A DNA stretch of 64,000 nt from Variovorax sp. PBL-H6. Lineage in GTDB: Bacteria > Pseudomonadota > Gammaproteobacteria > Burkholderiales > Burkholderiaceae_C. A model generated the notes under the pieces. That model was not told the DNA's origin and did not search any database. It saw nothing but the letters and a program-made list of their open reading frames with translations. Numbering within the stretch: the first letter of the stretch is position 1; each line of letters opens with the position of its first letter. Positions 11,306-31,969 of this stretch are shown in pieces. The stretch is from positions 1,550,001-1,614,000 of the forward strand of contig NZ_LR594659.1 of NCBI RefSeq assembly GCF_901827155.1, given 5' to 3'. Position numbers and translations under genes: made by a program.

Positions 11306-11438
11306 ACCACAAAGCGCCGGTGCGCCCTTTCGAGCGCTTCTTGCGTGCCGCGACGACGGCGGCGGGCGGTCCCGTCTGTCACGAGTCGGTCATTCCGCAA
11401 GGGCAGCATGGTTGTCCTCTATTTGTTTCGGAAGCTTT

Positions 11439-12356: not shown

Positions 12357-12427
12357 GAGCGTCGCAGCGCAGCTCGCGGCCCGGAAGCTGCTAAGGTGGG
12401 GAGCCGAACCCGGCCCACGCCCGCACC

Positions 12428-13477
12428 ATGGCCCGTCGCTCTTCCTCGACCTCTGCCGCGAAGGCGTTCACGCGCGCCTACCAGCGCAGCATGAAGGCCC
12501 TCACCACCGCCACCCTGCGCAATGGAAAGCGCATCGCAGGGCAGGTGCAGCGCGCGGCGGCCGAGCACCTCAAGCCGCCTCGCGGCCCCGGCGACTGGCT
12601 GGCGGGGGCCGCGCTCGGCCCTGGCGGGGCGCGGCGCTATCACCTGTACCGGCCGCCGGACATGCAGCTGGGCGAGCGCCTGCCGCTCCTGGTCATGCTG
12701 CATGGCTGCGGCCAGACCGGGCGCGACTTTGCCGCCAGCACGCGCATGAACCTGCTGGCTGCACGCGAACGCTTCTTCGTGCTCTACCCGGAGCAGGACC
12801 GCATGGCCCATCCGCAGGGCTGCTGGAATTGGTACGACCGCCGCTTCGGCAAGGCCGACGCCGAGGCTGCGACGCTGATGGCCGCCATCGACCAGGTCTG
12901 CCTGCTGTACCCGGTGGACCGCGAGCGCGTCGCCGTGGCCGGGCTCTCCGCGGGCGCCGGCATGGCGGCGCTGATGGCCACGCGCTACGCCGTGCGCTTC
13001 AAGGCCCTGGCCATGCATTCGGGCGTGGCACCCGGCGCCGCCCGCTCGCCCGCGACCGCGCTGGGCGCCATGCGCGGGCGCCATGTGCCGCCGATGCCCG
13101 CCACTGCGGTCGGCAAGGCCATGGGGGCCGCCGCGGTCTTCGCCACGCTGCCGCCGCTGCTGGTCCTGCATGGCGATGCCGATCTGGTCGTGTCGGCCCG
13201 CAATGCGTTGAGCACCGCGGAGGTCTGGGCCACGGCCACCGGCGCGCGGCCCGGCATCCAGCGCACCGTGCAGCGTGGCAAGCGCCATGCAATGCGGGTC
13301 ACGGAGTTCAAGCGCAAGGGCCGCACCCTTGTCATGCTGTGCGAGGTCGCGGGGCTGGGTCATGCCTGGAGCGGCGGCGCGCCACGCCTGCCTTTCAGCG
13401 ACGCGGCCGGGCCCAATGCGTCGCGGCTGATCTGGGCCTTCGCCTCGAAGCAGTTCAAGGCGGCCGCGGTAGCCTGA
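12428..13477 (+). CDS. LpqC/PHB-depolymerase-family esterase
   Basis: 349 residues with an alpha/beta-hydrolase fold. The oxyanion region is LLVMLHGCGQTGRDFA, and the nucleophile is in AGLSAGAGMAAL (GxSxG). HGDADLVV probably holds the acid, and GLGHAWSGG the catalytic His. These are hallmarks of the esterase_PHB family (LpqC/FaeC-like). The N-terminus is basic and has no signal peptide, so the enzyme may act on intracellular PHA or on small esters. It begins 71 bases after ppk2, perhaps co-transcribed. Confidence 0.9.
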   Translation: MARRSSSTSAAKAFTRAYQRSMKALTTATLRNGKRIAGQVQRAAAEHLKPPRGPGDWLAGAALGPGGARRYHLYRPPDMQLGERLPLLVMLHGCGQTGRDFAASTRMNLLAARERFFVLYPEQDRMAHPQGCWNWYDRRFGKADAEAATLMAAIDQVCLLYPVDRERVAVAGLSAGAGMAALMATRYAVRFKALAMHSGVAPGAARSPATALGAMRGRHVPPMPATAVGKAMGAAAVFATLPPLLVLHGDADLVVSARNALSTAEVWATATGARPGIQRTVQRGKRHAMRVTEFKRKGRTLVMLCEVAGLGHAWSGGAPRLPFSDAAGPNASRLIWAFASKQFKAAAVA

Positions 13478-13502
13478 CATGTCCGGCATCGCCTGCGACC
13501 AC

Positions 13503-13777
13503 TGATGCCGGTGCTGCGCGAATGGCTGGCAAGGCGAGGGCGCTGGCCGCATCGGCCTGATCCTCACCGGCCACAGCCTCGGTGCCGCACTCGCCACACT
13601 GCCCGCCACGGTGCTTGCCCCGAGCCTGCTGGAACCTTCGGCTCGCCGCGCGTCGGCAGCACGGCGTTCGTGGCCGCGCTCGCGGAAGTCCAGTTGCTTC
13701 GACTCGTCAATGGCTGCGACCTCGTCACGCACCTGCCGCCGGCCTTGTCGCTCTTCGCGAATGCCCGTTTCGGGTGA
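13503..13777 (+). pseudogene. Frameshifted remnant of a class 3 lipase
   Basis: The spacer between the esterase and urtA holds two pieces of one protein family in different frames. Frame 3 encodes LILTGHSLGAALATLPATVL (the lipase nucleophile elbow, 13557 on). Frame 2 encodes GTFGSPRVGSTAFVAAL and LLRLVNGCDLVTHLPPAL (13631-13757). In an intact Lipase_3 domain these segments follow each other in one frame. No start codon, N-terminal half or catalytic His region remains. The gene has therefore decayed by truncation and a shift near 13605-13630. Confidence 0.7.
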
Positions 13778-13874
13778 AGAGAACAGGCTGAGCTGTACGC
13801 CACCCGGCGTATTTCCGACGCGGGACCGATTCCGCAGACTCGCCTGTGTCATTCACACCCAGGAGAAGAGTCCC

Positions 13875-15146
13875 ATGCAACAACGTCGATTCACCCTCAA
13901 GGCGCTCACGGCCGCGGTCGCGCTGGCCGGCCTTTCCGCCATTCCGGCCTTGGCTGCCGACACCATCAAGGTCGGCGTGCTGCACTCGCTGTCGGGCACC
14001 ATGGCCATCTCCGAGACCGTGCTCAAGGACACCGTGCTGATGGCGATCGACGAGATCAATGCCAAGGGCGGGGTGCTCGGCAAGAAGCTCGAGCCCGTGG
14101 TGGTCGACCCGGCCTCCAACTGGCCGCTCTTCGCCGAGAAGACCAAGCAGCTGCTCGGCCAGGACAAGGTGTCGGTGATCTTCGGCTGCTGGACCTCCGT
14201 GTCGCGCAAGTCGGTGCTGCCGGTGGTCGAGGAAATGAACGGCCTGCTGTTCTACCCCGTCCAGTACGAAGGCGAGGAGCTCAGCAAGAACGTCTTCTAC
14301 ACCGGCGCCGCGCCCAACCAGCAGGCCATTCCCGCGGTCGACTACCTGATGAGCAAGGAAGGCGGCGGCGCCAAGCGCTGGGTGCTGCTGGGCACCGACT
14401 ACGTCTATCCGCGCACCACCAACAAGATCCTGCGCGCCTACCTCAAGAGCAAGGGCGTGAAGGACACCGACATCGACGAGAAGTACACCCCCTTCGGCCA
14501 CAGCGACTACCAGACCATCGTCGCCGACATCAAGAAGTTCTCCTCCGGCGGCAAGACGGCCGTGGTGTCGACCATCAACGGCGACTCCAACGTGCCCTTC
14601 TACAAGGAACTCGGCAACGCCGGCCTGAAGGCCAAGGACGTGCCGGTGGTCGCCTTCTCGGTGGGCGAGGAAGAGCTGCGCGGCGTCGACACCAAGCCGC
14701 TGGTGGGCCACCTGGCCGCATGGAACTACTTCATGTCGATCAAGAACCCGACCAACACCGCGTTCATCAAGCAGTGGAGCGACTACGCCAAGGCCAAGAA
14801 CATCGCCGGCCACAAGGACAAGCCGCTCACCAACGACCCGATGGAAGCCACCTACATCGGCATCCACATGTGGAAGCAGGCGGTCGAGAAGGCCAAGAGC
14901 ACCGACACCGACAAGGTGATCGCGGCGATGGCCGGTCAGACGTTTACCGCGCCCTCGGGCATCGTTTCGAAGATGGACGAGAAGAACCACCACCTGCACA
15001 AGAGCGTGTTCATCGGCGAGATCAAGGCCGACGGGCAGTTCAGCGTCGTGTGGAAGACGCCGGGTCCGGTCAAGGCCAAGCCGTGGAGTCCGTACATCGA
15101 GGGCAACGACAAGAAGCCGGACTATCCGGCTGGCAAGTCGATGTAA
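13875..15146 (+). CDS. urtA: Urea ABC transporter substrate-binding protein UrtA
   Basis: 423 residues. A Sec signal peptide (residues 1-28, ending PALAAD) precedes the type-I periplasmic binding fold with IKVGVLHSLSGTMAIS. The urea-binding subfamily is recognised from VSVIFGCWTSVSRKSVLPV and LLFYPVQYEGEE. AGGAGA at 13861-13866 precedes the ATG. It is the first gene of a five-gene urea/short-chain amide uptake operon. Such operons are usually induced by nitrogen limitation, but no clear sigma-54 site was found in the 97 bases upstream. Confidence 0.96.
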   Translation: MQQRRFTLKALTAAVALAGLSAIPALAADTIKVGVLHSLSGTMAISETVLKDTVLMAIDEINAKGGVLGKKLEPVVVDPASNWPLFAEKTKQLLGQDKVSVIFGCWTSVSRKSVLPVVEEMNGLLFYPVQYEGEELSKNVFYTGAAPNQQAIPAVDYLMSKEGGGAKRWVLLGTDYVYPRTTNKILRAYLKSKGVKDTDIDEKYTPFGHSDYQTIVADIKKFSSGGKTAVVSTINGDSNVPFYKELGNAGLKAKDVPVVAFSVGEEELRGVDTKPLVGHLAAWNYFMSIKNPTNTAFIKQWSDYAKAKNIAGHKDKPLTNDPMEATYIGIHMWKQAVEKAKSTDTDKVIAAMAGQTFTAPSGIVSKMDEKNHHLHKSVFIGEIKADGQFSVVWKTPGPVKAKPWSPYIEGNDKKPDYPAGKSM

Positions 15147-18902: not shown

Positions 18903-19595
18903 ATGCTCAAGGTCAGGAACATCCATCAGTACTACGGCGGCTCCCACATCCTGCGTGACGTGAGCCTGGAGGCGCATGCGGGCAGGGTCACGGTGCTGCT
19001 CGGGCGCAACGGCGTGGGCAAGACCACCCTGCTCAAATGCTTGACGGGGCTGGTCCCCATCAAGAGCGGCAGCATCGAGTTCGACGGCGCGCCGATCCAC
19101 CGGAAGACGCCCTACGAGCGCGCCCGAGCCGGCATGGGCTTCGTGCCGCAGGGGCGCGAGATCTTCGCGCGCCTCACGGTCGAAGAGAACCTGCGCATGG
19201 GCCTGGCCTATCGCCCGGCAGGCACGCCGATCCCGCCGGAGCTGTTCGATCTTTTTCCCGTGCTCAAGCAGATGCTCAACCGCCGCGGCGGCGATCTGTC
19301 GGGCGGCCAGCAGCAGCAGCTCGCCATCGCGCGGGCACTGGCGCCTGGCCCCAAGCTGCTGATCCTCGACGAGCCGACCGAAGGCATCCAGCCCAGCATC
19401 ATCAAGGACATCGGCCGCGTGATCCGCATGCTCGCTGACCGCGGCGACATGGCCATCGTGCTGTGCGAGCAGTACTACGACTTCGCGCAGGAACTGGCCG
19501 ACGACTACCTGGTCATGGAACGCGGCGAGGTGATTGCGCGCGGCGCAGGCAAGGACATGGAGGCGCAGGGAGTGCGCCAGCTGGTCGCAATCTGA
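18903..19595 (+). CDS. urtE: Urea ABC transporter ATP-binding protein UrtE
   Basis: 230 residues, the LivF-like ATPase of the urea transporter. Walker A is GRNGVGKTT, the signature is DLSGGQQQQLAIARAL, and Walker B is LLILDEPTEGIQPS. It is the last urt gene. In many relatives the urease genes ureDABC follow here. In this window a DedA-rhodanese gene follows instead, and the only urease gene seen is a ureD copy near 33 kb on the other strand. Confidence 0.95.
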   Translation: MLKVRNIHQYYGGSHILRDVSLEAHAGRVTVLLGRNGVGKTTLLKCLTGLVPIKSGSIEFDGAPIHRKTPYERARAGMGFVPQGREIFARLTVEENLRMGLAYRPAGTPIPPELFDLFPVLKQMLNRRGGDLSGGQQQQLAIARALAPGPKLLILDEPTEGIQPSIIKDIGRVIRMLADRGDMAIVLCEQYYDFAQELADDYLVMERGEVIARGAGKDMEAQGVRQLVAI

Positions 19596-19765
19596 ACGCT
19601 GCCGGGGCGGCTCGCCCGTGCCCGAGCGCTCCGGGGGATTCGCGAGCCGCCACAGCCCGTGCCGAGCATTGGCGCTACGCTAGCGGTCGTCGCCTCTTGC
19701 GCCTGCCGCCGCTTCGCCATGTCCCTTGCCTGCCAGTGCCGCCTTCGTCCAGCCGGGGTTCGCGC

Positions 19766-20710
19766 ATGGAAACGCTGATCGCCCTGATGGTCGACCATGC
19801 CGTGGCGGTCGTCTTCGTCATCACCTTCGCCGCGCGCGTCGGCCTGCCGTTGCCCGCCGCGCCCGTGCTGGTCGTGGCCGGCGGCATCGCCGCCATGGCC
19901 GAGCCGGTGCTGCTGCTCGCCCTGGTCGCCGCGGCGCTGCTGGCCAACGTGCTCGGCGACGCCGTGTGGTTCTATGCCGGCCGCACCTACGGCTATCGCT
20001 TCATGCGGCTGCTGTGCAAGATCTCCATCTCGCCCGACTCCTGCGTGCGCAGCAGCGAATCCCTGATCACCCGCTGGGGCGGGCTGTCGCTGGTCGCCGC
20101 CAAGTTCGTGCCCGGCGTCTCCGTGGTAGCACCGCCAATGGCCGGCGCACTCGGCATGTCCTCGTGGCGCTTCCTGGGCTTCGAAACCATGGCCGCCCTG
20201 CTGTGGGTCGGCGTCTTCCTCGGCCTGGGCTGGGTCTTCCGGGAGCAGATCGAGGCCGTGCTCGACACGCTGGCCAATGCCGGCGGCGTCGCGACCGTTG
20301 CGCTGGTCGTTGTGCTCGCAGCGATGCTGGCGCTGCGCTGGTGGCGCCGCCGCAGCGTCCTGCGTATCGCGAGCATGCCGCGCGCCGGCATCGACGAGCT
20401 GCTCGGGCTGATGGCGGGCGAGGCCCCGCCGATCGTGGTCGACGTGCGCGGAGAGGCCGGAGTGCAGGTCGATCCACGCCGCATTCCCGGGGCCGTGCCG
20501 ATTCCCCTCAAGGCCCTGCAGCAGCGGCGCGCGGCGCTGCCCTTCGACGACAAGGGGCGCGAGATCATCCTCTACTGCAATTGCCCGAACGAGCTCTCGG
20601 CTGCGCTCGCCGCGCAGGCGCTGATGGCGCGCGGCTTCTTGCGCGCGCGGCCGCTGGCCGGCGGGCTGGAGGCCTGGGTGGACGCCGGCCACCCGACTGC
20701 CGAGGCCTGA
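19766..20710 (+). CDS. DedA-family membrane protein fused to a rhodanese domain
   Basis: 314 residues. Residues 1-200 form a DedA/SNARE-associated membrane domain (FAARVGLPLPAAPVLVVAGG; KFVPGVSVVAPPMAGALGM). After a final helix and the basic stretch RWWRRRS, residues about 215-310 form a rhodanese domain. This has IVVDVRGEAGVQ and the active-site loop YCNCPNELSAA with a Cys in the catalytic position. DedA proteins act in lipid flipping and membrane homeostasis; a rhodanese tail suggests a redox or sulfur-linked role. The ATG at 19766 is chosen because translation upstream lacks family similarity. It converges on the ABC ATPase gene. Confidence 0.88.
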   Translation: METLIALMVDHAVAVVFVITFAARVGLPLPAAPVLVVAGGIAAMAEPVLLLALVAAALLANVLGDAVWFYAGRTYGYRFMRLLCKISISPDSCVRSSESLITRWGGLSLVAAKFVPGVSVVAPPMAGALGMSSWRFLGFETMAALLWVGVFLGLGWVFREQIEAVLDTLANAGGVATVALVVVLAAMLALRWWRRRSVLRIASMPRAGIDELLGLMAGEAPPIVVDVRGEAGVQVDPRRIPGAVPIPLKALQQRRAALPFDDKGREIILYCNCPNELSAALAAQALMARGFLRARPLAGGLEAWVDAGHPTAEA

Positions 20711-20734
20711 CCCGACCGGAGCGCGCCCGGCCGC

Positions 20735-21469
20735 TCAGTGCTGAAGGATCTTCGAGAGGAACTGCCGCGCGCGCTCCGAGCGCGCCGCGGGGTTGCCGAA
20801 GAACTCCTCCTTGCCGCAATCCTCGACGATGCGGCCCTGGTCCATGAAGATCACGCGGTGGGCGACCTTGCGCGCAAAGCCCATCTCGTGCGTGACGCAC
20901 ATCATGGTCATGCCCTCGCGCGCGAGCTGCACCATCACATCGAGCACCTCGTTCACCATCTCCGGGTCCAGCGCCGAGGTGGGCTCGTCGAACAGCATGG
21001 CGACGGGGTTCATCGCGAGCGCGCGGGCGATCGCCACGCGTTGCTGCTGGCCGCCCGAGAGCTGGCTGGGGTACTTGTGCGCATGGGCCCGCATGCCCAC
21101 CCGCTGGAGCAGTGCCATGGAGGTGGTGTGCGCCTCCTCGACGGAGCGCTTGAGGACCTTGCGCTGTGCAATCGAGAGGTTCTCCTCGATCGACAGGTGC
21201 GGAAACAGCTCGAAGTGCTGGAACACCATGCCCACGCGCGAGCGCAGCCTGTTCATGTCCACCTTCGGGTCGCCCACGGAGACGCCGTCGACCGCGATGC
21301 TGCCCTGCTGGAAGGGCTCCAGCGCATTGACGCACTTGATGAGCGTGGACTTGCCCGAACCCGAAGGGCCGCAGACCACGACGACCTCGCCCTTGCGCAC
21401 GCTGGTGCTGCAGTCGGCCAACACCTGGAAGGACCCATACCACTTGCTCAGTTGACGTATCTCGATCAT
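20735..21469 (-). CDS. Polar amino-acid ABC transporter ATP-binding protein (GlnQ/HisP type)
   Basis: 244 residues. Walker A is GPSGSGKST, the signature is [17 protein letters not shown], and Walker B is [32 protein letters not shown] is typical for polar amino-acid importers. The matching binding protein and permease are not next to it but lie on the other arm of the island (26725-28316). The three parts probably form one importer. It is the last gene of the left arm, six bases after the M20 gene. Confidence 0.93.
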
Positions 21470-21475
21470 GGAAGC

Positions 21476-22723
21476 TCAGCGTGTCAGGAGTTGCAGGAGG
21501 GTGTTGGCGACGACCACCGTCGCCTTGCGCAATTCGTCCAGCGGCACGCGCTCGTCTGCGCGGTGCCCGTTGGCTTCGAGCAGCGACTCCGGGCCGGCGC
21601 CGTACATCACGGTGGGAATGCCGGCTTCGCTGTAGAGACGCGCGTCGGTGTAGAGCGGCACGCCGATCGGCGTCACCGCCTTGCCCATCACCGCGCTCGC
21701 CTCGCGGCACATCAGCTCGGCCAGTTCCTTCGCGCCGGGCGCGGGGGCGAAGGGGCGCGCCAGCAGGATGCGGCGGATCTCGACCTCGATGCCGGGCAGC
21801 GCGCGGCAGGCCTGCTCGATCACGCCGCGCAACTCGGCCTCCACCGCCTCCGGCGATTCCTCGGGCACGATGCGACGGTCGATGCGCAGGCTGAGCCGGT
21901 CGGCCACCACGTTGGTGTTGATGCCTCCTTCGATCAGCCCGATCACCAGCGTCGGGTGACTGATGCCGGGCGTCTGCGAAGGCCTGCCGGCGAGCGCGTC
22001 GCGATGCCGATAGAGCGCCGGCAGCAGCGTGGCGGCGGCCTCGATGGCGTCATGGCCGGTGTCCGGCCGGGCTGCGTGGGCGGACTTGCCGCGCAGCGTC
22101 ACCTCGAGGTGCAGGCAGCCGTTGTGGGCGACCACCACGTGGTGCGAGAAGGCGGCCGAGAGCACGTAGTCGGGCCGGCTCAGCCCTTGGGAAAGAATCC
22201 AGCCCGGGCCGGTCATGCCGCCCGTCTCCTCGTCGTAGGTGAGATGCAGCTCGACGGTGCCGCCCAGCGCCGCTCCTTCGGCCGCGAGCTGCTTGAGCGC
22301 GCGCAGTGCGCAGGCATAGGTGGTGAAGTCCGACTTGGACACGGCGGCGCCGCGACCGTACAGCCAGCCATCGCGCACTTCGCCGCCATAGGGGTCGACA
22401 CTCCAGCCTTCGCCGGGCGGCACCACGTCGCCGTGCGCGTTGAGCGCCACCACGGGGCCGTCGCCGAAGCGTTCGCGCACGATCAGGTTGGTCGCGCTGC
22501 GCATGCCGTGCTCGGCCGCGAACCGGGCCGGCACCGGGTGGCGTTCGACTTCGAAGCCCATCGCCTCGAGCAGGCCTGCCGTGAGTTCGGCATGCGGCGC
22601 GCAGTCGCCCGGCGGATTGTCGGAAGGACACCGCACCAGCCGGGCCAGCGTGCCCACCTGCTCGTCGAAATGCGTGTCGATGAAGTGGCGCAGGCTCTCG
22701 CGCGCGGAGTCGTGGTCGGTCAT
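21476..22723 (-). CDS. M20-family deacylase (ArgE/DapE/ACY1 type)
   Basis: 415 residues. The di-zinc site is visible as VVALNAHGDVVPPGEGW (first His/Asp), YGRGAAVSKSDFTTY, and LTYDEETGGMTGPGW (Glu pair). The dimerisation-domain His is in GKSAHAARPDTGHDAI. Such enzymes remove N-acyl, N-formyl or N-carbamoyl groups from amino acids. In this cluster it could process the ring-opened product of the hydantoinase, or an N-acyl amino acid; both are inference. The ATG at 22723 lies only five bases after the stop of the fusion oxidoreductase, so the genes are co-transcribed. Confidence 0.9.
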   Translation of the reverse strand: MTDHDSARESLRHFIDTHFDEQVGTLARLVRCPSDNPPGDCAPHAELTAGLLEAMGFEVERHPVPARFAAEHGMRSATNLIVRERFGDGPVVALNAHGDVVPPGEGWSVDPYGGEVRDGWLYGRGAAVSKSDFTTYACALRALKQLAAEGAALGGTVELHLTYDEETGGMTGPGWILSQGLSRPDYVLSAAFSHHVVVAHNGCLHLEVTLRGKSAHAARPDTGHDAIEAAATLLPALYRHRDALAGRPSQTPGISHPTLVIGLIEGGINTNVVADRLSLRIDRRIVPEESPEAVEAELRGVIEQACRALPGIEVEIRRILLARPFAPAPGAKELAELMCREASAVMGKAVTPIGVPLYTDARLYSEAGIPTVMYGAGPESLLEANGHRADERVPLDELRKATVVVANTLLQLLTR

Positions 22724-22728
22724 GGTGG

Positions 22729-25674
22729 TCAGAGAAAGCGGTCGATGCGGAACGGGGTGATGTCGATGTCGGTGCGGCCGTGCGCGATCAGGTCGGCGAC
22801 CAGCTTTGCCGTGATCGGCGCCAGCGTGTAGCCGTTGGAAGTGACGGCGTTGTAGAAGCCCGGCACACCCGGCACCTCGCCGATGATCGGCGCGCCGTCG
22901 ATGTTCACGTTCATGCCGGCCCAGCAGCGCACCATGTGCAGCCCGCTCACGGCCGGCAGCACCCGGCGGGCCACCCAGAGGTTGCCCTCGATGCTGGCGC
23001 GCTCGGCGCGGTTGAGCCGCATGTCCGGGTGAAAGGCAGCAGTCCAGCCGCCGCCGATCAGCAGGCCGCCGCTGGCCGCCTGCTTGAGGCTCAGGTGACG
23101 GTCGGCATGCGCGATCAGGTGATCGACCAGCGGCGGCGCGGGCTCGGTCACGATCATCTGCAGCGGTGCGCCCTGGACCGGGATCTTCACGCCCAGCATT
23201 TCCCCGAGCGCACTGGACCAGGCGCCGCTCGCATTGACGATGCGGCCGGCCCGGATCGTGCCGCGCGAGGTGCGCACCTCGAAGCCCGCGCCCGCGCCGG
23301 GCAGCCGCTCGATGGCCTGCACGTCGCAGCCGCGCAGCAGGCGCGCGCCCTGTTGCTGCGCACGCCGCGCCACCGCGTAGGTGGCACGCAGCGGATTGAT
23401 CTTGCCCTCCATCGGGCAGTGCTCCGCACCCAGCAGCTCGCCGGACAGGGCGGGCGACAGCCGGCGCAGAGCGGCGCCGTCGATCACCTCGGCGTCGATG
23501 CCATGGCGCCGCTCCAGCGCGGCCTTGGCCTCGAGGAAGCGCATGCCGGCCTCGCTGTCGGCCACCATCAGGCCGCCGGTGATCTTGATCTCGAGGTCCT
23601 CGCCGCAATCGGCCTCGATCTGCTGCCACAGCTTCACCGACATCGGCCCGAGCGGCAGCGTGGCCGCGGCCGGACCGCCGCCGGCCTGCGCCCGGGCCCC
23701 GAAGTCGAACGAGAGCAGCTGCACATGCAGGCTGCCCGCATTGGCGCCCGAGGCCTGGAGGTTGACGTCGTCGCGGTCGACCACCGTCACCTCCTGCCCC
23801 GCCCGCGAGAGGTAGTAGCCAAGGCAGGAGCCCAGCACGCCGGCACCGATGACCAGCACCTCGGTGCGCAGCGGCGCGAAGGCTTCGACCGCCATCGGCC
23901 GCGCAAGGTTGGGCGTGATCGCCGGCTTGTGGCCGCCCCATTCGGGCTTCTCGAAACCCAATGCACCGACCGGGACGGGCTTGGCGGGCGGCCTGGGCGC
24001 GAAGTACTGCTCCACATCGGGCGGCTTGCCCGTCGTCTCGCCGAGCAGGCGGGCGGCAGTCACGGCGCAGTAGCGGCCCTGGCAACGCCCCATGCCGAGC
24101 CGCGTGTTGCGCTTGAGGGCGGCCAGCGTGTCGCGGCCGGCCCGGATCTGCTCGCGGACGTCCCCGAACCGGATCTCCTCGCAGCGGCACAGCAGCGTGT
24201 CGTCGGTCACGTCCGCCAGCCGCACCGGCGGCGCGGCGTAGAGCGACCACAGCGCGCGCTGGAAGCGCTCCGCCTGCCGCAGATCGGCGAGCGCCGCCGC
24301 GGGCTCGGGCGCGTCCAGGCCCAGGTTGCGGGCCGCCGCGGCGCCGGCCAGCGTGCCGCGTGCCAGGGCCACGCGCGAGCCGCCCAGGTCCGCGCCGTCG
24401 CCGGCGACAAGAACGCCGGGCAGGTGGGTGGTGCCGTCTTCGCGGGTGACGGTCGCGGGGTAGCCGAGGTGCCGGTCCGCCACCCGGTGTTCGCAGCCCA
24501 GCATGCGCGCGAGCTCGGTGGAAGGTATGAAGCCGTAGCCCAGGCACAGCGTGTCGGCCTCGAAGCGCTGCACCGTGCCCGGCACTGCGCGGCCTTGCGC
24601 ATCGAGGCGTGCGGCCTGCACGGCCTCGAGGCGGTCCGTGCCTTCGGCAGCAGTCACCGCCGTACCCCAGATCACCGGCACACCGTGCGTGCGCAGCTGC
24701 CGCAGGTAGCGCCAGCCGTCGCGCAGCAAGTCGGGCGCGGCTCGCGTCGCGGTCCACATGGATTGCCATTGGCCCAGCCCGGGTCGCGGCGCCGATTCCA
24801 GTACGGCGAGCACCTTCGCGCCGCCGGCCAGCAGCTCGGCGGCCAGTTGCAGGTTCAGCGGCCCGTTGCCCGCGATGAGCACCCGCTGTCCCGGGGCCAC
24901 GCGGTAGGCGCGCGCCAGCGTCTGGCCGGCACCGGTGGTCATCACGCCCGGCAGCGTCCAGCCGGGGAAGGGCACGGGTCGCTCGTAGGCCCCCGGGGCA
25001 AGCACGAGTTGCCGGCACGCGATGACATGCGCCTGCCCACGAATGAGCGCGCCGACCTCGTTCGGCGAGAAGGCGGCCCAGACCTGCGCGTCCTGCTCGA
25101 TCACGACCCCCGCCGCCAGCACCTCACGCTCCAGCGCGAGGCCGGCCGCGAACTGGCGGTCGGCGGGTGCGGCGGCGTGGTGGGAGGGCGCCAGCGGCTT
25201 GTAGAACTGGCCGCCTGCCTGGAGCCGTTCGTCCAATACCAGCACACCCGCCCCGGCGCGGCGCGCGGCCAGCGCCGCCGACAGGCCAGCCGGCCCGGCG
25301 CCGATCACCAGCAGGTCGACTTCGCGGCGCGCCGGCTCGGCTGCCGGCTCGGGCGCCAGCGGCCGCAGCGGATCCTCGGGCGTGCCGGCAGGCATCGCCG
25401 AGCGGACCTGCTGGCCTTCGGCCACCTTGGTGAGACAGGCGCGCTGGCTGGCGCGCCCGTCCACCGTCACCAGGCAATCGAAGCAGGCCCCCATCCCGCA
25501 GTACAGGCCGCGGCGTTCTCCGCCGCGGGTATGGCGCATCTCGCGGATGCCGCCTGCCGCCAGCGCCGCGGCGAGGGTCTCCCCCTCCAGGCCTTCCATC
25601 GGCTGCCCGTCGTACCAGAAGCGCACCGGCTTGCCGGCAGGGCTCATCGAAGGGTGGCTCAATCGAACAGGCAT
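22729..25674 (-). CDS. Three-part FAD oxidoreductase: HcnA-, HcnB- and HcnC-like domains fused
   Basis: 981 residues. Residues 15-95 are a small [2Fe-2S] domain with Cys59, Cys64, Cys67 and Cys80 (LYCGMGACFDC, then RACLT). Residues about 118-480 are a pyridine-nucleotide-disulfide-type FAD domain starting VDLLVIGAGPAGLSAAL. A BFD-like [2Fe-2S] segment follows with LLCRCEEIRFG and GMGRCQGRYCAVT. From about residue 610 a second FAD domain of the D-amino-acid-oxidase family begins (TEVLVIGAGVLGSCLG). Hydrogen cyanide synthase, opine oxidases and D-hydroxyproline dehydrogenases usually split these parts over two or three subunits. It probably oxidises an imino or D-amino acid. The ATG at 25674 has no good ribosome site, so the start is uncertain. 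Confidence 0.9.
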   Translation of the reverse strand: MPVRLSHPSMSPAGKPVRFWYDGQPMEGLEGETLAAALAAGGIREMRHTRGGERRGLYCGMGACFDCLVTVDGRASQRACLTKVAEGQQVRSAMPAGTPEDPLRPLAPEPAAEPARREVDLLVIGAGPAGLSAALAARRAGAGVLVLDERLQAGGQFYKPLAPSHHAAAPADRQFAAGLALEREVLAAGVVIEQDAQVWAAFSPNEVGALIRGQAHVIACRQLVLAPGAYERPVPFPGWTLPGVMTTGAGQTLARAYRVAPGQRVLIAGNGPLNLQLAAELLAGGAKVLAVLESAPRPGLGQWQSMWTATRAAPDLLRDGWRYLRQLRTHGVPVIWGTAVTAAEGTDRLEAVQAARLDAQGRAVPGTVQRFEADTLCLGYGFIPSTELARMLGCEHRVADRHLGYPATVTREDGTTHLPGVLVAGDGADLGGSRVALARGTLAGAAAARNLGLDAPEPAAALADLRQAERFQRALWSLYAAPPVRLADVTDDTLLCRCEEIRFGDVREQIRAGRDTLAALKRNTRLGMGRCQGRYCAVTAARLLGETTGKPPDVEQYFAPRPPAKPVPVGALGFEKPEWGGHKPAITPNLARPMAVEAFAPLRTEVLVIGAGVLGSCLGYYLSRAGQEVTVVDRDDVNLQASGANAGSLHVQLLSFDFGARAQAGGGPAAATLPLGPMSVKLWQQIEADCGEDLEIKITGGLMVADSEAGMRFLEAKAALERRHGIDAEVIDGAALRRLSPALSGELLGAEHCPMEGKINPLRATYAVARRAQQQGARLLRGCDVQAIERLPGAGAGFEVRTSRGTIRAGRIVNASGAWSSALGEMLGVKIPVQGAPLQMIVTEPAPPLVDHLIAHADRHLSLKQAASGGLLIGGGWTAAFHPDMRLNRAERASIEGNLWVARRVLPAVSGLHMVRCWAGMNVNIDGAPIIGEVPGVPGFYNAVTSNGYTLAPITAKLVADLIAHGRTDIDITPFRIDRFL

Positions 25675-25700
25675 GGGCGAAGAAGAGGAGGAAAAGAACG

Positions 25701-25738
25701 TTGACGGCGATGAACGTATACGTATACTACACGTATAC
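25701..25738 (+). promoter_or_regulatory. Sigma-70 promoter overlaid by three GTATAC half-sites
   Basis: TTGACG (25701-25706), a 16-base spacer and TATACT (25723-25728) make a good sigma-70 promoter facing the DapA-family gene. GTATAC occurs at 25716-25721, 25722-25727 and 25733-25738; the first two form a perfect 12-bp palindrome. These sites overlap the -10 region, as expected for a repressor. GntR/FCD regulators often bind palindromes with a TATAC core, and such a regulator is encoded at the end of the same arm (29851-30537). The site lies between the divergent arms and could control both. Confidence 0.7.
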
Positions 25739-25777
25739 CTTGCAATCAGCCACCTCGAACCTCCCCCAGGACCGCCG

Positions 25778-26674
25778 ATGACAGCATTTCGAGGCACCTA
25801 CACGGTGCTCATCACCCCCATGACCGCCGATGGCCGGCAGGTCGACGTGCCGGCACTGAAGAAGCTGGTCGAGTGGCAGATCCAGGAGGGCATCCACGGG
25901 CTGATCCCGCTGGGCAGCACCGGCGAATTCCTGTCCTTGACGCCGCAGGAGCGCCAGCTCGTCATCGAAACCTGCGTGACCACCGCAGCAAAACGCGTGC
26001 CGGTTCTGATCGGCACCGGCGCCGAGTGGACGGACGAATGCGTGCGCCTGAGCCGGGAGGCCGAGGGCATGGGCGCCGACGGCGTGATGATCATCCCGCC
26101 CTTCTACAGCACGCCCACGGACGACGAGCTGTTCGAGCACTATCGCAAGGTGGGCGAGGCGATCGGCATTCCGATCATGGTCTACAACAACCCGGCCACG
26201 GCCAACGTGGACCTCAAGCCAGAGCTGGTGGCGCGCCTTTCGCGCATCGACAACTGCAGGTACATCAAGGAGTCGACGCTCGAAGTGACCCGCGTGCGCG
26301 ACATCATCGAACTGTGCGGCGACCGCATGACGGTGTTCGCCGGCATCCTCGGCTACGAGTCCTTCTGGCTCGGTGCCCAGGGCTGGGTGGCGGTGTGCTC
26401 CAACCTGATCCCGAAGATGTCGGCCCGCCTCTTCGAACTGGTCGCCGACGAGCGCGACATGCCTGCGGCCCTGGCGCTCTACAAGAAGATGCTGCCGATC
26501 GTGCGCTGGGTCGGCGGCCATCGCTATGTCGCGGCCTCCAAGGACGGGCTCACGATGATGGGCCTGCCCGTCGGCAAGCCCCGCGCTCCGCGCCTGCCGC
26601 TCCCGGCCAACGAGGCGGCCGACCTGCGCCGCGAGCTCGACCGCCTGCAGCTCCTCGATTCGATCCGCGCCTGA
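25778..26674 (+). CDS. DapA-family (dihydrodipicolinate synthase/NAL superfamily) lyase
   Basis: 298 residues. Schiff-base Lys164 is in CRYIKEST, the catalytic Tyr136 in IMVYNNPATA, and the substrate loop is GSTGEFLSL (residues 46-54). In this superfamily the Lys forms an imine with a pyruvate-like substrate. Members include DHDP synthase, KDG aldolases and the deaminase of hydroxyproline breakdown. The neighbourhood (oxidase fusion, amino-acid importer, hydantoinase) argues for a catabolic lyase or deaminase rather than lysine biosynthesis. It is the first gene of the right arm. Confidence 0.9.
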   Translation: MTAFRGTYTVLITPMTADGRQVDVPALKKLVEWQIQEGIHGLIPLGSTGEFLSLTPQERQLVIETCVTTAAKRVPVLIGTGAEWTDECVRLSREAEGMGADGVMIIPPFYSTPTDDELFEHYRKVGEAIGIPIMVYNNPATANVDLKPELVARLSRIDNCRYIKESTLEVTRVRDIIELCGDRMTVFAGILGYESFWLGAQGWVAVCSNLIPKMSARLFELVADERDMPAALALYKKMLPIVRWVGGHRYVAASKDGLTMMGLPVGKPRAPRLPLPANEAADLRRELDRLQLLDSIRA

Positions 26675-26724
26675 GCCGCGCGCGCCCGTTTCTTCGCCTC
26701 CTTCACTTCCCCAAGGACATCACC

Positions 26725-27555
26725 ATGAAACTGCTTCCCGCTCTCGTGTCGGCCTCGGCCCTGTTCCTTCTCGGCGCGGGCGCTGCGAACGCGCAGGCGT
26801 GCAAGTCGCCGGTGCCCGATTCGGCGCTCGTCAAGAAGGGCACCCTCGTGATGTCGGTGAATCCCACGCTGCCGCCCTTGCAGTTCGTCGACCAGACGGG
26901 CGCACTCAAGGGCATGCGCGTGGAACTGGGCGAGGCGATCGCCAAGCGGCTGTGCCTGACGCCGGAGTACGTGCGCATCGAGTTCTCGGCCATGATCCCG
27001 GGCCTGCAGGCGGGCCGCTGGGATGTCATCAACACCGGCATCTTCTATACCGAGGAGCGCGCCAAGCTGATGCAGATGCTGATCTACGAGGACCAGGCCA
27101 TCAGCATCAGCACCGCCAAGGGCAACCCGCTGAAGATCGGCAAGCCGGAGGACCTCTCGGGCAAGAGCATCGGCGTGGAGATCGGCGGCTTCGAGGAGCG
27201 CAAGGCGCGCGAGCTCGACAAGCAGCTCACCGACAAGGGCATGAAGGGCATGACCATCCGCACCTTCGAGAACTTCGCCATGGCCTTCCAGGCCTTGCGC
27301 GCCGGCCAGGTCGAAGTGGCGTTGTCGATCGATTCCACGGGCGCCGAGTACCAGAAGCGCGGCGATTTCGACCGCGTGCTGCACGGCCTGTTCCCGACCC
27401 CCGTCGCGCTCGCTGCCCGCAACAAGGATGTGGCCGGCGCCATCGCCAAGGTGCTCAACGACATGAAGGCGGACGGCAGCTTCCAGAAGCTGTTCGACCA
27501 GTACGGCGTGAAGGCCTTCGAAGGCGCCGTGACCGTCAAGGGCCCTGCGGGCTGA
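26725..27555 (+). CDS. Amino-acid ABC transporter substrate-binding protein
   Basis: 276 residues. A Sec signal peptide (MKLLPALVSASALFLLG ... ANAQA) precedes a type-II periplasmic binding domain: GTLVMSVNPTLPPLQFVDQTGALKGM and GRWDVINTGIFYTEERAK. It belongs to SBP_bac_3, binding polar or modified amino acids. It lies 50 bases after the DapA-family gene and 38 bases before the permease. Confidence 0.92.
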   Translation: MKLLPALVSASALFLLGAGAANAQACKSPVPDSALVKKGTLVMSVNPTLPPLQFVDQTGALKGMRVELGEAIAKRLCLTPEYVRIEFSAMIPGLQAGRWDVINTGIFYTEERAKLMQMLIYEDQAISISTAKGNPLKIGKPEDLSGKSIGVEIGGFEERKARELDKQLTDKGMKGMTIRTFENFAMAFQALRAGQVEVALSIDSTGAEYQKRGDFDRVLHGLFPTPVALAARNKDVAGAIAKVLNDMKADGSFQKLFDQYGVKAFEGAVTVKGPAG

Positions 27556-27593
27556 GTGCCGCGCGGCCACCGAAGCCCCTCGAAGGAACTGCC

Positions 27594-28316
27594 ATGGGAC
27601 AAGGCTGGAGCTGGTCGGGATTCACCGACTACCTGTTGAACCCTTACCTGCTGAGCGGCGCCGTGACCACGCTGTGGCTCACGCTTGCCGCGATCGCCGG
27701 CGGACTGGTGGTGGGCTGCGCGCTGGCCCTGGCCCGGCTGTCGAGCCGCCGCTGGCTCAACGCGCCGGCGCACTTCTACATCTGGGTGTTCCGCGGCACG
27801 CCGCTGCTGGTGCAGCTGATCATCATCTACACCGGCCTGCCGCAGCTGGGGCTGAAGCTGTCGGTCATCGAGTCGGCCCTGCTCGGCCTGATCCTCAACG
27901 AGGCGGCGTACCTGGCCGAGATCGTGCGCGGCGGCATCCAGTCGGTGCCGGTGGGCCAGACCCATGCGGCGCGCGCCGTCGGCTTCAGCAACGCGCAGAC
28001 CATGCGCTACATCGTCATGCCGCAGGCGATGCGGCTGATCGTGCCGACGCTGGGCAACAGCATCAACGGCCTGCTGAAGACCACCTCGATCACGTCGGTG
28101 ATCTCGATGGAAGAGCTGCTGCGCCGCACGCAGGTGCTGATCCAGGAAAGATTCATGGTGCTCGAGCTGTTCCTCGTCGCAGCCCTCTACTACCTGCTGA
28201 TGACCACCGCCTGGGACTTCGTGCAGCGCCGCATCGAACGCCACTACGGCCGCGCCTACGGACCGGCGAGCGCGCCGGCCGCGGCACCGCCGGAGGCCGC
28301 GCTCGAGCAGCGCTAG
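27594..28316 (+). CDS. Amino-acid ABC transporter permease (HisM/GlnP type)
   Basis: 240 residues with five or six hydrophobic helices. The coupling EAA motif reads GQTHAARAVGFSNAQTMRYIVMPQAMR. The segment WVFRGTPLLVQLIIIYTGLP is typical of polar amino-acid permeases. Only one permease gene is present, so the membrane part is either a homodimer or uses a partner encoded elsewhere. GAAGGAAC precedes the ATG at 27594. Confidence 0.92.
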   Translation: MGQGWSWSGFTDYLLNPYLLSGAVTTLWLTLAAIAGGLVVGCALALARLSSRRWLNAPAHFYIWVFRGTPLLVQLIIIYTGLPQLGLKLSVIESALLGLILNEAAYLAEIVRGGIQSVPVGQTHAARAVGFSNAQTMRYIVMPQAMRLIVPTLGNSINGLLKTTSITSVISMEELLRRTQVLIQERFMVLELFLVAALYYLLMTTAWDFVQRRIERHYGRAYGPASAPAAAPPEAALEQR

Positions 28317-28323
28317 GACTGCC

Positions 28324-29778
28324 ATGGCCCACTACGACCTGATTCTTCGCAACGCCGACATCGCCACCGTCGGCGACCGCTACCGTGCCGACATCGGCGT
28401 GCGCGAAGGCCGCATCGCCGCCATCGCGCAAGGCCTCGAAGGCCACGCCGCACGCGAGATCGATGCCGCGGGCCGGCTCGTCACGCCCGGCGGTGTCGAC
28501 GGCCACTGCCACTTCGACCAGCCCACCAGCGACGGCTCGCGCTTTGCCGACGACTTCTTCACCGGCACCCGGTCGGCGGCCTGCGGCGGCACCACCACCG
28601 TGCTGCCCTTCGCCGCCCAGCAGAAAGGGCACAGCCTGCAGGCCGCGGTCGACGACTACCACCAGCGCGCAGAGGGCAAGGCGGTGATCGACTACGCCTT
28701 CCACCTGATCGTGTCCGACGCCACCCGCGACGTGACGCGGCGGGAGCTGCCCGCGCTGATCGAGAAGGGCTACACCTCCTTCAAGATCTACATGACCTAC
28801 GACGACCTGAAGCTGGACGACCGGCAGGTCCTCGAAGTGCTCGCCGCCGCGCGCCGGCATGGTGCGATGACCATGGTCCATGCCGAGAACAGCGACTGCA
28901 TCGCCTGGCTCACCGAGCAGCTGCTCGACGCCGGCCTCACCGCGCCGCGCTACCACGCGAGCTCCCGGCCGATGGCGGTGGAGCGCGAGGCCACGCACCG
29001 AGCCATCGCGCTGGCCGAACTGGTCGATACCCCGATCCTGATCGTGCACGTCTCTGGCCGCGAGGCCGTCGAGCAGATCCACTGGGCCCGCGGGCGCGGC
29101 CTGCCGATCCATGCAGAGACCTGCCCGCAGTACCTCTTCCTGAGCGCCGAGGACCTGGGGCTGCACGAAGACGACCCGATGCACGGAGCGCGCTGCATCT
29201 GCAGCCCGCCGCCGCGCGACAAGGCCAACCAGCCCTTCATCTGGAACGGGCTGGCCAGCGGTCTCTTCACCATCGTCTCCTCCGACCATGCGCCCTTCAA
29301 CATGAACGGCCCGGACGGCAAGCGGGTGGCCGGCGAGAACGCCTCGTTCGACCGCATCCCCAACGGCATTCCGGGCGTGGAAACGCGGCTGCCGCTGCTG
29401 ATGAGCGAGGGCGTGCTGGCCGGGCGCATCGACATCCATCGCTTCGTGGAGCTCACTGCCACGAATCCGGCGCGGCTCTACGGCCTGTACCCGCGCAAGG
29501 GCACGATCGCGGTCGGCAGTGATGCGGACTTCGTGGTGTGGGACGTCTTCGCCGCGGGCAAGGAGAAGACCATCGCCAACGACATGCTCCACCATGCCGC
29601 CGACTACACCCCCTACGAGGGCATGAAGCTGCGCGCCTGGCCCGGTATCACCGTGTCGCGCGGTCGCGTGGTGTGGCAGGACGGCGAGTTCCGGGCCGAG
29701 CCGGGATCGGGCGAGTTCCTGCCGTGCCTGCGCCCGCGCGCGCCCAACGCCGGCAACCCGCTGCAGAAGTGGCTGTGA
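28324..29778 (+). CDS. hydA: Dihydropyrimidinase / D-hydantoinase
   Basis: 484 residues, amidohydrolase fold. The first metal motif is GGVDGHCHFDQP, the carboxylated Lys is in YTSFKIYMTYDDL, and later metal ligands are in HAENSDCI, HVSGREAV and SSDHAPFN. The family opens the ring of dihydropyrimidines or 5-substituted hydantoins to N-carbamoyl amino acids. No dihydropyrimidine dehydrogenase genes lie nearby; neighbours are an amino-acid importer and an oxidase, so a hydantoin or cyclic-imide nutrient is more likely than pyrimidine. It starts eight bases after the permease stop. Confidence 0.93.
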   Translation: MAHYDLILRNADIATVGDRYRADIGVREGRIAAIAQGLEGHAAREIDAAGRLVTPGGVDGHCHFDQPTSDGSRFADDFFTGTRSAACGGTTTVLPFAAQQKGHSLQAAVDDYHQRAEGKAVIDYAFHLIVSDATRDVTRRELPALIEKGYTSFKIYMTYDDLKLDDRQVLEVLAAARRHGAMTMVHAENSDCIAWLTEQLLDAGLTAPRYHASSRPMAVEREATHRAIALAELVDTPILIVHVSGREAVEQIHWARGRGLPIHAETCPQYLFLSAEDLGLHEDDPMHGARCICSPPPRDKANQPFIWNGLASGLFTIVSSDHAPFNMNGPDGKRVAGENASFDRIPNGIPGVETRLPLLMSEGVLAGRIDIHRFVELTATNPARLYGLYPRKGTIAVGSDADFVVWDVFAAGKEKTIANDMLHHAADYTPYEGMKLRAWPGITVSRGRVVWQDGEFRAEPGSGEFLPCLRPRAPNAGNPLQKWL

Positions 29779-29850
29779 GGCCGAGCCGTGCGCCGCCGCG
29801 GGCCTGATAAGCTTTTCCCGCTCCACGTGGAGTTCGCCTTCTCCTCCCGC

Positions 29851-30537
29851 ATGCCAAGCCTTCCCAGTCCGGCGCAGCCCGCCACCATCACCATCGCGCC
29901 GCTGGAGGTGCGTTCCACCAGCCTGGCCGAGCAGGCTTACGAGCGGTTGCGCCAGCTCATCCTCGACCGCCAGATCTCGGCCGGCAGCCCCTTGCAGGAA
30001 GCTCGCCTGGCCGAGGACCTGCGCATCTCCCGCACGCCGATGCGCGAGGCGCTGGTGCGGCTGGCCGGCGAAGGCCTGCTGGTGCGGCGCGACGCGCGCT
30101 CCTATGCCGTGCGCGCGCTCGGCACCAAGGAATACTTCGACTGCATGCGCGCGCGCGAGGTGATCGAGTGCGAGGCCATCGCGCTCGCCGTGGCCAAGAT
30201 CACCGATGCCGAGATCGACGCGCTCGAGGCCGAGGCACAGGCCCTGCACAACGGCGAACACAGCGAGATCGAGCACTTCCATTTCGACGACCGCTTCCAT
30301 TCGCTGATCGCCAACGCGAGCGGCAACGTGGTGTTCCCGCGGCTGGTCGAGGAGCTGCGCGTCAATGCGCGGCTGTTCCGACTGCACAGCCCGCTGCACC
30401 GCCAGCGCGAGAACCACGACGAGCACGGCACCATCATCGATGCCTTGCGCGCCCGCGACCCGGAGCGCGCCCGCGAGGCCATGCGCGCGCATCTGCGCAG
30501 CCTGCAGGAAGACGTCAAGCGCGCCATCATCGAGTGA
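29851..30537 (+). CDS. GntR-family regulator, FCD subfamily
   Basis: 228 residues from ATG 29851; a GTG at 29788 would add 21 residues of low conservation. The N-terminal winged helix reads LAEQAYERLRQLILDRQIS and LRISRTPMREALVRLAGEGL. The C-terminal FCD domain has metal-site residues in FDDRFHSLIANAS and AMRAHL. As the last gene of the right arm it is the best candidate to bind the GTATAC sites at 25716-25738. Its stop overlaps the stop of the convergent MFS gene by 11 bases. Confidence 0.9.
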   Translation: MPSLPSPAQPATITIAPLEVRSTSLAEQAYERLRQLILDRQISAGSPLQEARLAEDLRISRTPMREALVRLAGEGLLVRRDARSYAVRALGTKEYFDCMRAREVIECEAIALAVAKITDAEIDALEAEAQALHNGEHSEIEHFHFDDRFHSLIANASGNVVFPRLVEELRVNARLFRLHSPLHRQRENHDEHGTIIDALRARDPERAREAMRAHLRSLQEDVKRAIIE

Positions 30538-31969
30538 GCGGGCCTTCGCTCGAATCGCTGCCCAGCGGCGGCGCCACTTCCTCCAGCGGCTTGCGCTCCG
30601 CGTCGACCGCGAAGCGCAGCGCCAGCAGCCCGGCGATCACCACCAGCGCCGCTCCGATCGCATAGCCGACGGCCACCGCGGTGCGGCTGCCGGTTTCGAT
30701 CAGCGCGCCGAAGAGCACCGGCGCGACGAAGCCGCCCGCGCCCGTGCCCACGGCGTAGAAGATCGCGATGGCGATCGCCCGGATCTCGAGCGGGAACACC
30801 TCGCTCACCGTCAGGTAGGCCGAGCTCGCTGCTGCCGAGGCCAGGAAGAACACGGCCGACCAGGCCAACGCCTGGCTGCGCGCATCGAGCCAGCCCTGCA
30901 TGAAAGCCCATCCGGTCAGTGCGAGGCCGATGCCCGAGCACACATAGGTCAGCGCGATCATGCGGCGGCGCCCGACACGGTCGAACAACGGCCCGAGGAT
31001 CAGCGGCCCCAGCACGTTGCCGAGCGCGAAGGGAAAGATGTAGAGCGCGACGCGCCCTTCCGGCACCCCGTGGAAGCGCGTCAGCACCAGCGCATAGGTG
31101 AAGAAAATGGCGTTGTAGAAGAAGGCCTGCGAGATCATCAGCGCGAGCGCGACGCCGCTGCGCTGCGGGTAGCGGCGCAGCAGCACCTGCGCGACCTCGC
31201 GCCAACCCGGGCTCGCGCGCCGGCCGTAGTGCACGCGGCCCACGGGCGTGGGTAGCGTGCCGTACTGCGCGGCGACCTCCGCCTCGATGCCTGCGACGAT
31301 GCGCTCCGCTTCTTCGGTGCGGCCATGCGCCATCAACCAGCGTGGACTTTCCGGCACGTCGCGCCGCACCAGCAGGATCGCCACGGCCAGCACCGCGCCC
31401 AGGCCGAAGCCTGCGCGCCAACCCCACACGGGCCCGAGCACCCGCGGGTCCAGCAGCACAAGGCTCAGCCCCGCGCCGAGCGCAGCGCCGATCCAGAAGC
31501 TGCCATTGATCGCCAGGTTCACGCGGCCGCGCACCCGCGCAGGAATCAGCTCGTCGATCGCCGAGTTGATGGCCGCGTATTCCCCGCCGATGCCCAGCCC
31601 GGTGAGAAAGCGGCACAGCGCGAAGAAGGCGAAGTCGGGGGAAAAGGCGGTGGCAAGCGTGGCCAGTGCATAGACGGCCAGCGTGATCAGGAACAGCTTC
31701 TTGCGCCCCAGCCGGTCGGTCAGGCGGCCGAAGAGCAGGGCGCCGATCACCGCGCCACCGATGTAGAGCGAGCCCGACCAGCCGATCTGCGCCGCCGTCA
31801 GCGCCAGCGTGTCGGGCCGTTCGAGCACGCCGCCGATCGAGCCGACCAGCGTGACCTCCAGCCCGTCGAGCACCCAGGCGACGCCCAGCGCCACGACCAC
31901 GCGCCAGTGCCAGCGCGACCAGGGAAGGCGGTCGAGGCGAGCCGGGATGTCGCTGTGGACATCCGTCAT
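30527..31969 (-). CDS. MFS transporter (AAHS/sugar-porter-like)
   Basis: 480 residues with about twelve hydrophobic helices. Motif A is seen as GRLTDRLGRKKLFLIT after helix 2 and again as GPLFDRVGRRRMIALT after helix 8. DVPESPRWLM matches sugar/organic-acid porters of the MFS. The gene reads toward the GntR gene with an 11-base overlap of coding ends. The substrate is unknown; an organic or aromatic acid is plausible for the AAHS branch. Confidence 0.9.
   Translation of the reverse strand: MTDVHSDIPARLDRLPWSRWHWRVVVALGVAWVLDGLEVTLVGSIGGVLERPDTLALTAAQIGWSGSLYIGGAVIGALLFGRLTDRLGRKKLFLITLAVYALATLATAFSPDFAFFALCRFLTGLGIGGEYAAINSAIDELIPARVRGRVNLAINGSFWIGAALGAGLSLVLLDPRVLGPVWGWRAGFGLGAVLAVAILLVRRDVPESPRWLMAHGRTEEAERIVAGIEAEVAAQYGTLPTPVGRVHYGRRASPGWREVAQVLLRRYPQRSGVALALMISQAFFYNAIFFTYALVLTRFHGVPEGRVALYIFPFALGNVLGPLILGPLFDRVGRRRMIALTYVCSGIGLALTGWAFMQGWLDARSQALAWSAVFFLASAAASSAYLTVSEVFPLEIRAIAIAIFYAVGTGAGGFVAPVLFGALIETGSRTAVAVGYAIGAALVVIAGLLALRFAVDAERKPLEEVAPPLGSDSSEGPLTR

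Follow-up and report, generated by a model that had tools for sequence, protein, structure and literature searches.

A divergent gene island in Variovorax sp. PBL-H6

The region considered here, a candidate catabolic gene island, lies at positions 20735 to 30537 of a 64-kb window (i.e., the whole stretch of DNA analyzed) from the 6.87-Mb genome of Variovorax sp. PBL-H6. The region comprises eight open genes, organized as two arms diverging from a single gap of 103 bp (25675-25777). The left arm, on the minus strand, encodes a fused three-part oxidase, an M20 metallo-hydrolase and the ATPase of an ABC importer, and the right arm, on the plus strand, encodes a DapA-family enzyme, the binding protein and permease of the importer, a hydantoinase and a GntR regulator (Table 1). 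An earlier, sequence-only reading of this DNA had named each of these families, and all were indeed found in open frames, with its gene list and coordinates proving right. The enzymes and the two arms stand as listed there, the set being one of eight genes rather than the seven that had been counted. Likewise, the importer is truly split between the arms, as had been proposed. The best NCBIfam match of its ATPase is GlnQ, at 312 bits, below the cut-off of 379.

Table 1. Genes and intergenic features of the island (positions are those of the window).
Feature	Position	Strand	Evidence
GlnQ-like ATPase of an ABC importer for polar amino acids; ends the left arm	20735-21469	-	PF00005, 118.9 bits
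M20 metallo-hydrolase, ArgE/DapE-like	21476-22723	-	PF01546 and PF07687 (longer mechanical open reading frame)
Fused three-part dehydrogenase (oxidase)	22729-25674	-	Pfam Fer2_4, Pyr_redox_2, Fer2_BFD/SO_alpha_A3 and DAO, in this order
Sigma-70-like promoter of DapA arm, TTGACG-16-TATACT	25701-25728	+	10/12 matches
Operator-like repeat, GTATACGTATACTACACGTATAC	25716-25738	.	Lies between the arms and covers the -10 box
Lyase/aldolase of the DapA (DHDPS) family; opens the right arm	25778-26674	+	PF00701, 199 bits
Periplasmic amino-acid-type binding protein (family 3)	26725-27555	+	PF00497, 95.8 bits
ABC importer permease, HisMQ type	27594-28316	+	PF00528, 82 bits; TIGR01726, 106 bits (cut-off 42.2)
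Hydantoinase/dihydropyrimidinase-type cyclic amidohydrolase	28324-29778	+	NF009941, TIGR02033
GntR-FCD regulator, probable start at 29851	29788-30537	+	PF00392 and PF07729

The two arms share a private intergenic site

When positions 20600 to 30700 were scanned for promoter-like sites, that of the DapA arm was the only one returned, as compared to a mean of 0.4 in shuffled sequences; the same scan gave none for the left arm. In 32 of 43 distinct homologous gaps, TTGA[CT] precedes TATACT at an identical distance. The hexamer GTATAC occurs three times in the window, each time in the gap between the arms, a number reached in 0 of 100 shuffles. GTATAC was found in all 53 homologous divergent gaps examined (duplicates included). 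As this sample was restricted to divergent oxidase/DapA pairs, the Rhizobiales loci, with their co-directional genes, fall outside it. At least two copies of the hexamer are present in 42 of the 43 distinct gaps and GTATACGTATAC is kept in 40, with the gaps lacking the latter coming from Azospirillum and from the genome designated G741. A genome-wide search for GTATACGTATACTNNNCGTATAC, allowing at most three mismatches, found the site at one place in each of 23 oxidase-bearing Variovorax genomes and nowhere in the other 39 of 62 Variovorax genomes, with no second copy in the PBL-H6 genome. The reversed control pattern gave two matches in total, one of these in the PBL-H6 genome.

Because both arms diverge from a gap containing a GTATAC site that, among the 62 Variovorax genomes, is confined to those bearing the oxidase, they very probably belong together as one unit. 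The earlier proposal that the arms are linked and form one functional unit is thus strengthened, given how a shared and private site argues against unlinked arms. Most likely, the GntR protein represses both arms through the GTATAC repeats that overlie the promoter of the DapA arm, with such predicted repression being relieved by the substrate or by an intermediate of the pathway.

The island recurs in Comamonadaceae

A scan for the oxidase, performed with one genome per species and detecting close relatives only, yielded 40 loci. All are titled as genera that we take to be members of the Comamonadaceae, except L021, a bin named only as Proteobacteria. Addition of L067, L068, L076 and L077, likewise from Variovorax, brought the total to 44, of which 39 were fully visible, the partial loci L031, L032, L035, L036 and L042 being set aside. 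A gene was scored as present at an identity of at least 60% (55% for GntR) and a coverage of at least 60%, within 7 kb. In this manner, the DapA-family enzyme, the binding protein, the permease and GntR were each found in 39 of 39 loci. The hydantoinase was found in 38 (missing from L022), the M20 hydrolase in 36 (missing from L018, L022 and L076) and a whole ATPase in 23. An intact ATPase was not found in the other 16, where another ATPase may thus serve the importer. Partial ATPase remnants were seen in L009 (14208-14546) and L021 (14211-14402), the gene being intact in other loci.

The oxidase is 91% identical to its counterpart in Variovorax sp. WS11, and 23 of 61 Variovorax genomes carry the oxidase. 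Members of the DapA branch found in the island are encoded by 30 of 62 Variovorax genomes, at an identity of at least 89% in 23 and of 61-63% in the remaining seven. When the genome handles were compared by eye, the 23 genomes with the closer DapA proved to be the same 23 that carry the oxidase; no oxidase was found in the other seven. Genome G824, one of the 62 used in the DapA and site searches and lying outside the 61-genome oxidase search, lacks both the site and a DapA of this branch. In even draws from the class and from the phylum that included the PBL-H6 genome, the oxidase was carried by 2 of 369 and 4 of 398 genomes, respectively, and the distribution of the island is therefore patchy. 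Over 50 loci, distances of the oxidase co-vary with those of the DapA-family enzyme (r = 0.98) and the binding protein (r = 0.94); among the 40 loci of the Comamonadaceae type, the correlations are weaker (r = 0.84 and 0.60, respectively). The possibility that these genes never occur together elsewhere, which would have spoken against the island as first described, is clearly dismissed by the 39 loci and by the plasmid-borne relatives described below. The grouping of the genes exceeds chance, as seen in the shared 23 genomes and in the operator-like site common to both arms.

The oxidase is a single chain of three parts

The oxidase is one 981-residue polypeptide that combines a 2Fe-2S part (gamma-like), an FAD/BFD part (alpha-like) and a DAO FAD part (beta-like). 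In 52 of 52 distinct homologs, the gamma motif CX4CX2CX11-12C, CXC-x30-36-CX4C and two GXGXXG motifs were present. The strict pattern R-x-W-[AG]-G matched 41 of the 52; when loosened to R-x-W-A-[AG], the pattern matched 50 of 50. The island oxidase thus contains motifs reported for the flavin opine/D-hydroxyproline dehydrogenases, namely, the gamma cysteines, two ADP-binding motifs and Arg-x-Trp, in a single chain rather than in separate alpha, beta and gamma subunits.

In the flavin opine dehydrogenase of Pseudomonas putida, parts of these three kinds are described as separate subunits (PMC4575208). In the portion of that account consulted, OdhABC (NoxAB/OoxAB) has, like the island oxidase, a 2Fe-2S, an FAD and a DAO-like part, along with Arg-x-Trp and the cysteine motif of the gamma part, and OdhABC clusters also hold putative ABC transporter genes. 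OdhABC, however, consists of three polypeptides, and the spacing between the cysteine pairs of its alpha part is 15-20, as opposed to CXC-x32-CX4C in the island; neither DapA nor a hydantoinase appears in the same portion (PMC4575208).

Among enzymes of solved structure, the best relatives by sequence are the archaeal L-proline dehydrogenase (1y56_B; E = 2.2e-33) and heterotetrameric sarcosine oxidase. These enzymes (1y56, 2gag and 1vrq) are the nearest solved relatives of the island oxidase, which differs from them in being a single fused chain and in its low identity to them. The oxidase scored 166.6 with the soxA model (cut-off 1164) and 119 with soxB (cut-off 529), and presumably is without the C-terminal half of SoxA. 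A structure model of the oxidase was poor (mean pLDDT 67.5; pTM 0.51), and its fold matches were the same top set as obtained by sequence, adding nothing.

The DapA-family enzyme, the hydantoinase and the M20 hydrolase

The DapA-family enzyme contains GSTGE from residue 46, Y136 and K164, which we take to have Schiff-base roles. In an alignment, it has Thr at the position where DHDPS of the lysine pathway presumably has Arg138. The assignment of this protein as the lysine-pathway DapA was rejected, given a TIGR00674 score of 195.6 bits, below the cut-off of 206.15, together with Thr in place of Arg138; another gene of the genome scores 336 on PF00701. A DapA-family gene of Azospirillum (L055, 9944-10864) is annotated as lysine-pathway dapA; it scores 207.8, barely above the same cut-off, and has Thr at the Arg138 position. 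The island enzyme is about 28% identical to a DapA-family protein encoded in an unannotated stretch of Sinorhizobium meliloti pSymB that is presumed to be the hyp cluster; the latter protein has GSMGD in place of GSTGE.

The hydantoinase lies above curated cut-offs for NF009941 (dihydropyrimidinase; 806.7 versus 647) and TIGR02033 (540.7 versus 393.25). It keeps H61, H63, K154, H186, H242 and D321, presumably the binuclear metal ligands with the carboxylated Lys, as well as Y159, S294 and N347, presumably involved in ring recognition. The M20 hydrolase, by contrast, lies below the curated cut-off in each of its best 25 of 53 NCBIfam families; these 25, the last of which scored 61 bits, include no carbamoylase model. 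Among the models absent from these 25 is TIGR01879 (cut-off 204), on which a control from locus L097, clearly a carbamoylase, scored 434.5 bits. The island resembles the Hyu hydantoinase/carbamoylase and dihydropyrimidine pathways in its hydantoinase, above both cut-offs, and in having an M20-fold partner. It differs from them in that this partner is ArgE/DapE-like and in the additional presence of a flavin dehydrogenase and DapA.

Related clusters in Variovorax and on alphaproteobacterial plasmids

Six of the seven Variovorax genomes encoding a DapA of 61-63% identity were opened (all but G774). In each of the six, a sister cluster was found that contains importer parts, DapA, a second DHDPS, LacI, a tautomerase, an acyl-CoA dehydrogenase, a CoA-transferase and MaoC, the MaoC of G771 being matched over 43% only. 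Four sister clusters (G763, G756, G761 and G785) contain both a hydantoinase and DUF3830; neither is present in the stretches examined in G771 and G798, with G771 having DUF3830 elsewhere. The hydantoinases of the island and of the sister version are 69% identical, and a set related to the sister cluster was also seen in G395. The DapA branch and the importer thus occur without the oxidase. The two versions never co-occur in the 62 genomes (chance probability 0.03), a mutual exclusivity that is weak evidence.

A related core was also found on plasmids of Azospirillum, Rhizobium, Agrobacterium vitis and Aureimonas. Of 16 plasmid hits, 14 were opened (all but H3 and H7), with H16 (split, 40%) lying outside the counts. 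In the 11 alphaproteobacterial plasmid loci, an ATPase, a GntR and DUF3830 were present in all, DapA, the binding protein and the permease in 10 (not in L066 of Azospirillum B510), the hydantoinase in eight (not in L062, L063 or L065) and an M20 of the window type in none. In the B510 locus (9026-15018), the oxidase is matched from residue 187 only and adjoins the hydantoinase, as if part of the island had been lost. In the G741 stretch, DUF3830 occurs together with a phosphotriesterase-family protein and an M20, and a hydantoinase was not found. Its M20 is unrelated to that of the window, sharing 28.7% identity over just 101 residues. A simple replacement of M20 by DUF3830 is weakened by G741 containing both and is, moreover, confounded with lineage. 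Finally, G365 contains the oxidase, DapA, hydantoinase and GntR.

Searches for DUF3830, of which none is encoded in the PBL-H6 genome, gave 19 matches, and 16 regions (14 from Variovorax and two from the same order) were opened. In 10 of these, a hydantoinase-family gene, in most cases with about 31% identity, lies within approximately 7 kb; three more, all sister clusters, have one in the neighboring stretch, and the other three are without any. A true carbamoylase is also encoded in one of the 10 and, as judged by eye, a hydantoin-racemase-like gene in one. DUF3830 is thus tied to cyclic-ureide chemistry by gene context only. DUF3830 is named in no paper of the open-licence literature library searched. 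In Rhizobium rhododendri (L065, 1341-6580), a second DUF3830 has as neighbors a SoxA-like flavoprotein subunit and an ABC importer of the amino acid type. On a plasmid of Agrobacterium fabrum (L128, 3287-10015), an opine-type three-subunit dehydrogenase adjoins hydantoinase A/B (oxoprolinase family), another case of ring-opening beside amine dehydrogenation.

Proposed function of the island

On balance, and by no great measure, the island is probably a locally regulated catabolic unit for an amino-acid-like compound, with a core of import, oxidation and DapA cleavage assisted by helper hydrolases. The binding protein, permease and ATPase would take up the compound, the class of which is suggested by the families to which the proteins belong. 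The fused 2Fe-2S/FAD/FAD enzyme would dehydrogenate an amine, with electrons probably passing to the respiratory chain, by analogy to its family, and the DapA-family Schiff-base enzyme would cleave or deaminate the resulting imine or 2-oxo acid. The hydantoinase and M20 would be accessory, yielding the core substrate from N-acylated forms and from ring-closed forms of the ureide or imide type. The importer, catabolic enzymes and GntR thus stand as the one unit seen in the sequence-only reading, shorn of a fixed series of steps.

Several observations weigh against such a core. The sister cluster keeps the importer and a DapA of 60-63% identity, and has an acyl-CoA oxidation set instead of the oxidase. 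Since DapA occurs there without the oxidase, the DapA-family enzyme need not act directly after the oxidase, leaving the order of the two open. Azospirillum B510 has the oxidase, ATPase, hydantoinase and DUF3830, with no DapA, binding protein or permease of the island type in the stretch, and in G365, a TRAP transporter stands where the ABC importer would be. Moreover, of seven Rhizobiales loci, only two (L057 and L058) have GTATAC in the 450 bases preceding the binding-protein gene, such that the site is not universal.

A fixed series along the lines originally proposed, in which import, ring opening, N-decarbamoylation by M20, oxidation and DapA cleavage are all obligatory, would be in keeping with the metal-binding and ring-recognition residues (roles presumed) retained by the hydantoinase. 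It would also fit the DUF3830 of the alphaproteobacterial versions lying close to hydantoinase-family genes in 10 of 16 regions, as well as in the adjoining stretch in three sister clusters. Yet the hydantoinase is missing from one of the 39 related loci, three of the 11 plasmid loci and the G741 stretch, and the window-type M20 from three of 39 and 11 of 11. Nor is there a carbamoylase model among the 25 best of the 53 M20 hits, as compared to the TIGR01879 score of the L097 control. The five-step series is thus not supported and, as a strict hydantoin route, is unlikely, with the evidence favoring a core with helpers over a rigid series.

The oxidase could instead split an N-carboxyalkyl amino acid, releasing an amino acid together with a 2-oxo acid, the latter being handled by DapA. 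For such opine-like catabolism of a secondary amine speak the parts and Arg-x-Trp shared with the flavin opine dehydrogenase, as far as described in the portion of the account consulted (PMC4575208), the plant-associated hosts and the amino-acid importer. However, outside its own clade, identity of the catalytic domain does not exceed 35% for any of the matches listed (60 of 384 plasmid records), and three opine-type neighborhoods contain no annotated DapA-family gene or hydantoinase of this kind. This explanation is rather improbable.

In trans-4-hydroxyproline catabolism, a DAAO-superfamily dehydrogenase is followed by a DHDPS-superfamily enzyme, a pair recalling that of the island, the pathway comprising HypE, D-Hyp dehydrogenase, a DHDPS-family deaminase and KGSA dehydrogenase in the part of the account consulted (PMC4113996). 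By this route, the oxidase would act on cis-4-hydroxy-D-proline or a relative and DapA would deaminate the pyrroline. The island differs in having no aldehyde dehydrogenase and no epimerase, and the genome has no proline-racemase-family gene over the cut-off (PF05544, best 20.7 bits versus 27), bearing out the earlier remark that this is not a standard hydroxyproline cluster. Also speaking against a pathway of this type are the lack of a second operator-like site in the genome and how little the proteins resemble those of the presumed S. meliloti hyp cluster (28% for DapA, as above, and 25% for the best match of the oxidase there). The canonical cluster was set aside for the missing epimerase and this low similarity, and a hydroxyproline-type pathway in general is held to be quite improbable.

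Least probable by far is catabolism of N-acyl-homoserine or homoserine, in which a lactone would be opened, M20 would deacylate, homoserine would be oxidized and DapA would yield pyruvate and formaldehyde: Variovorax can use N-acyl-homoserine lactones and the phosphotriesterase family, which includes known lactonases, has a member in G741, whose cluster yielded no hydantoinase, but the hydantoinase keeps residues for a cyclic -CO-NH-CO- group (roles presumed) and the context of DUF3830 points to ureides. An HCN-synthase-like role for the oxidase was considered and not adopted. The cyanide nit/cio cluster of Pseudomonas pseudoalcaligenes, as far as seen in its account, has a different gene set, and AMDase (PMC4996985), in the portion consulted, offered no link to the island.

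Returning to the core with helpers, no description of the island was found in the open-licence literature, as searched by titles and abstract openings. It is tentatively suggested, as a single claim held with less than even confidence, that the island represents a so far undescribed module of plant-associated Proteobacteria, in which an importer and a new branch of the DapA family, in most cases accompanied by a hydantoinase, are coupled either to an amine dehydrogenase with three parts fused into one or, in the sister form, to a set for acyl-CoA oxidation, DUF3830 and M20 being interchangeable hydrolytic helpers of cyclic-ureide breakdown. If so, Variovorax, Azospirillum and rhizobia would possess a new amino-acid-type catabolic route, and the fused three-part flavoenzyme and DUF3830 would each gain a testable role. 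Annotations naming the DapA-family enzyme as one of lysine biosynthesis would be corrected, and the inducer of the single-site regulator would directly name the substrate.

Just past the left arm, positions 19463-20710 (plus strand) encode one protein combining a DedA-type VTT domain with a rhodanese domain, relatives of which flank the island in several Variovorax loci.

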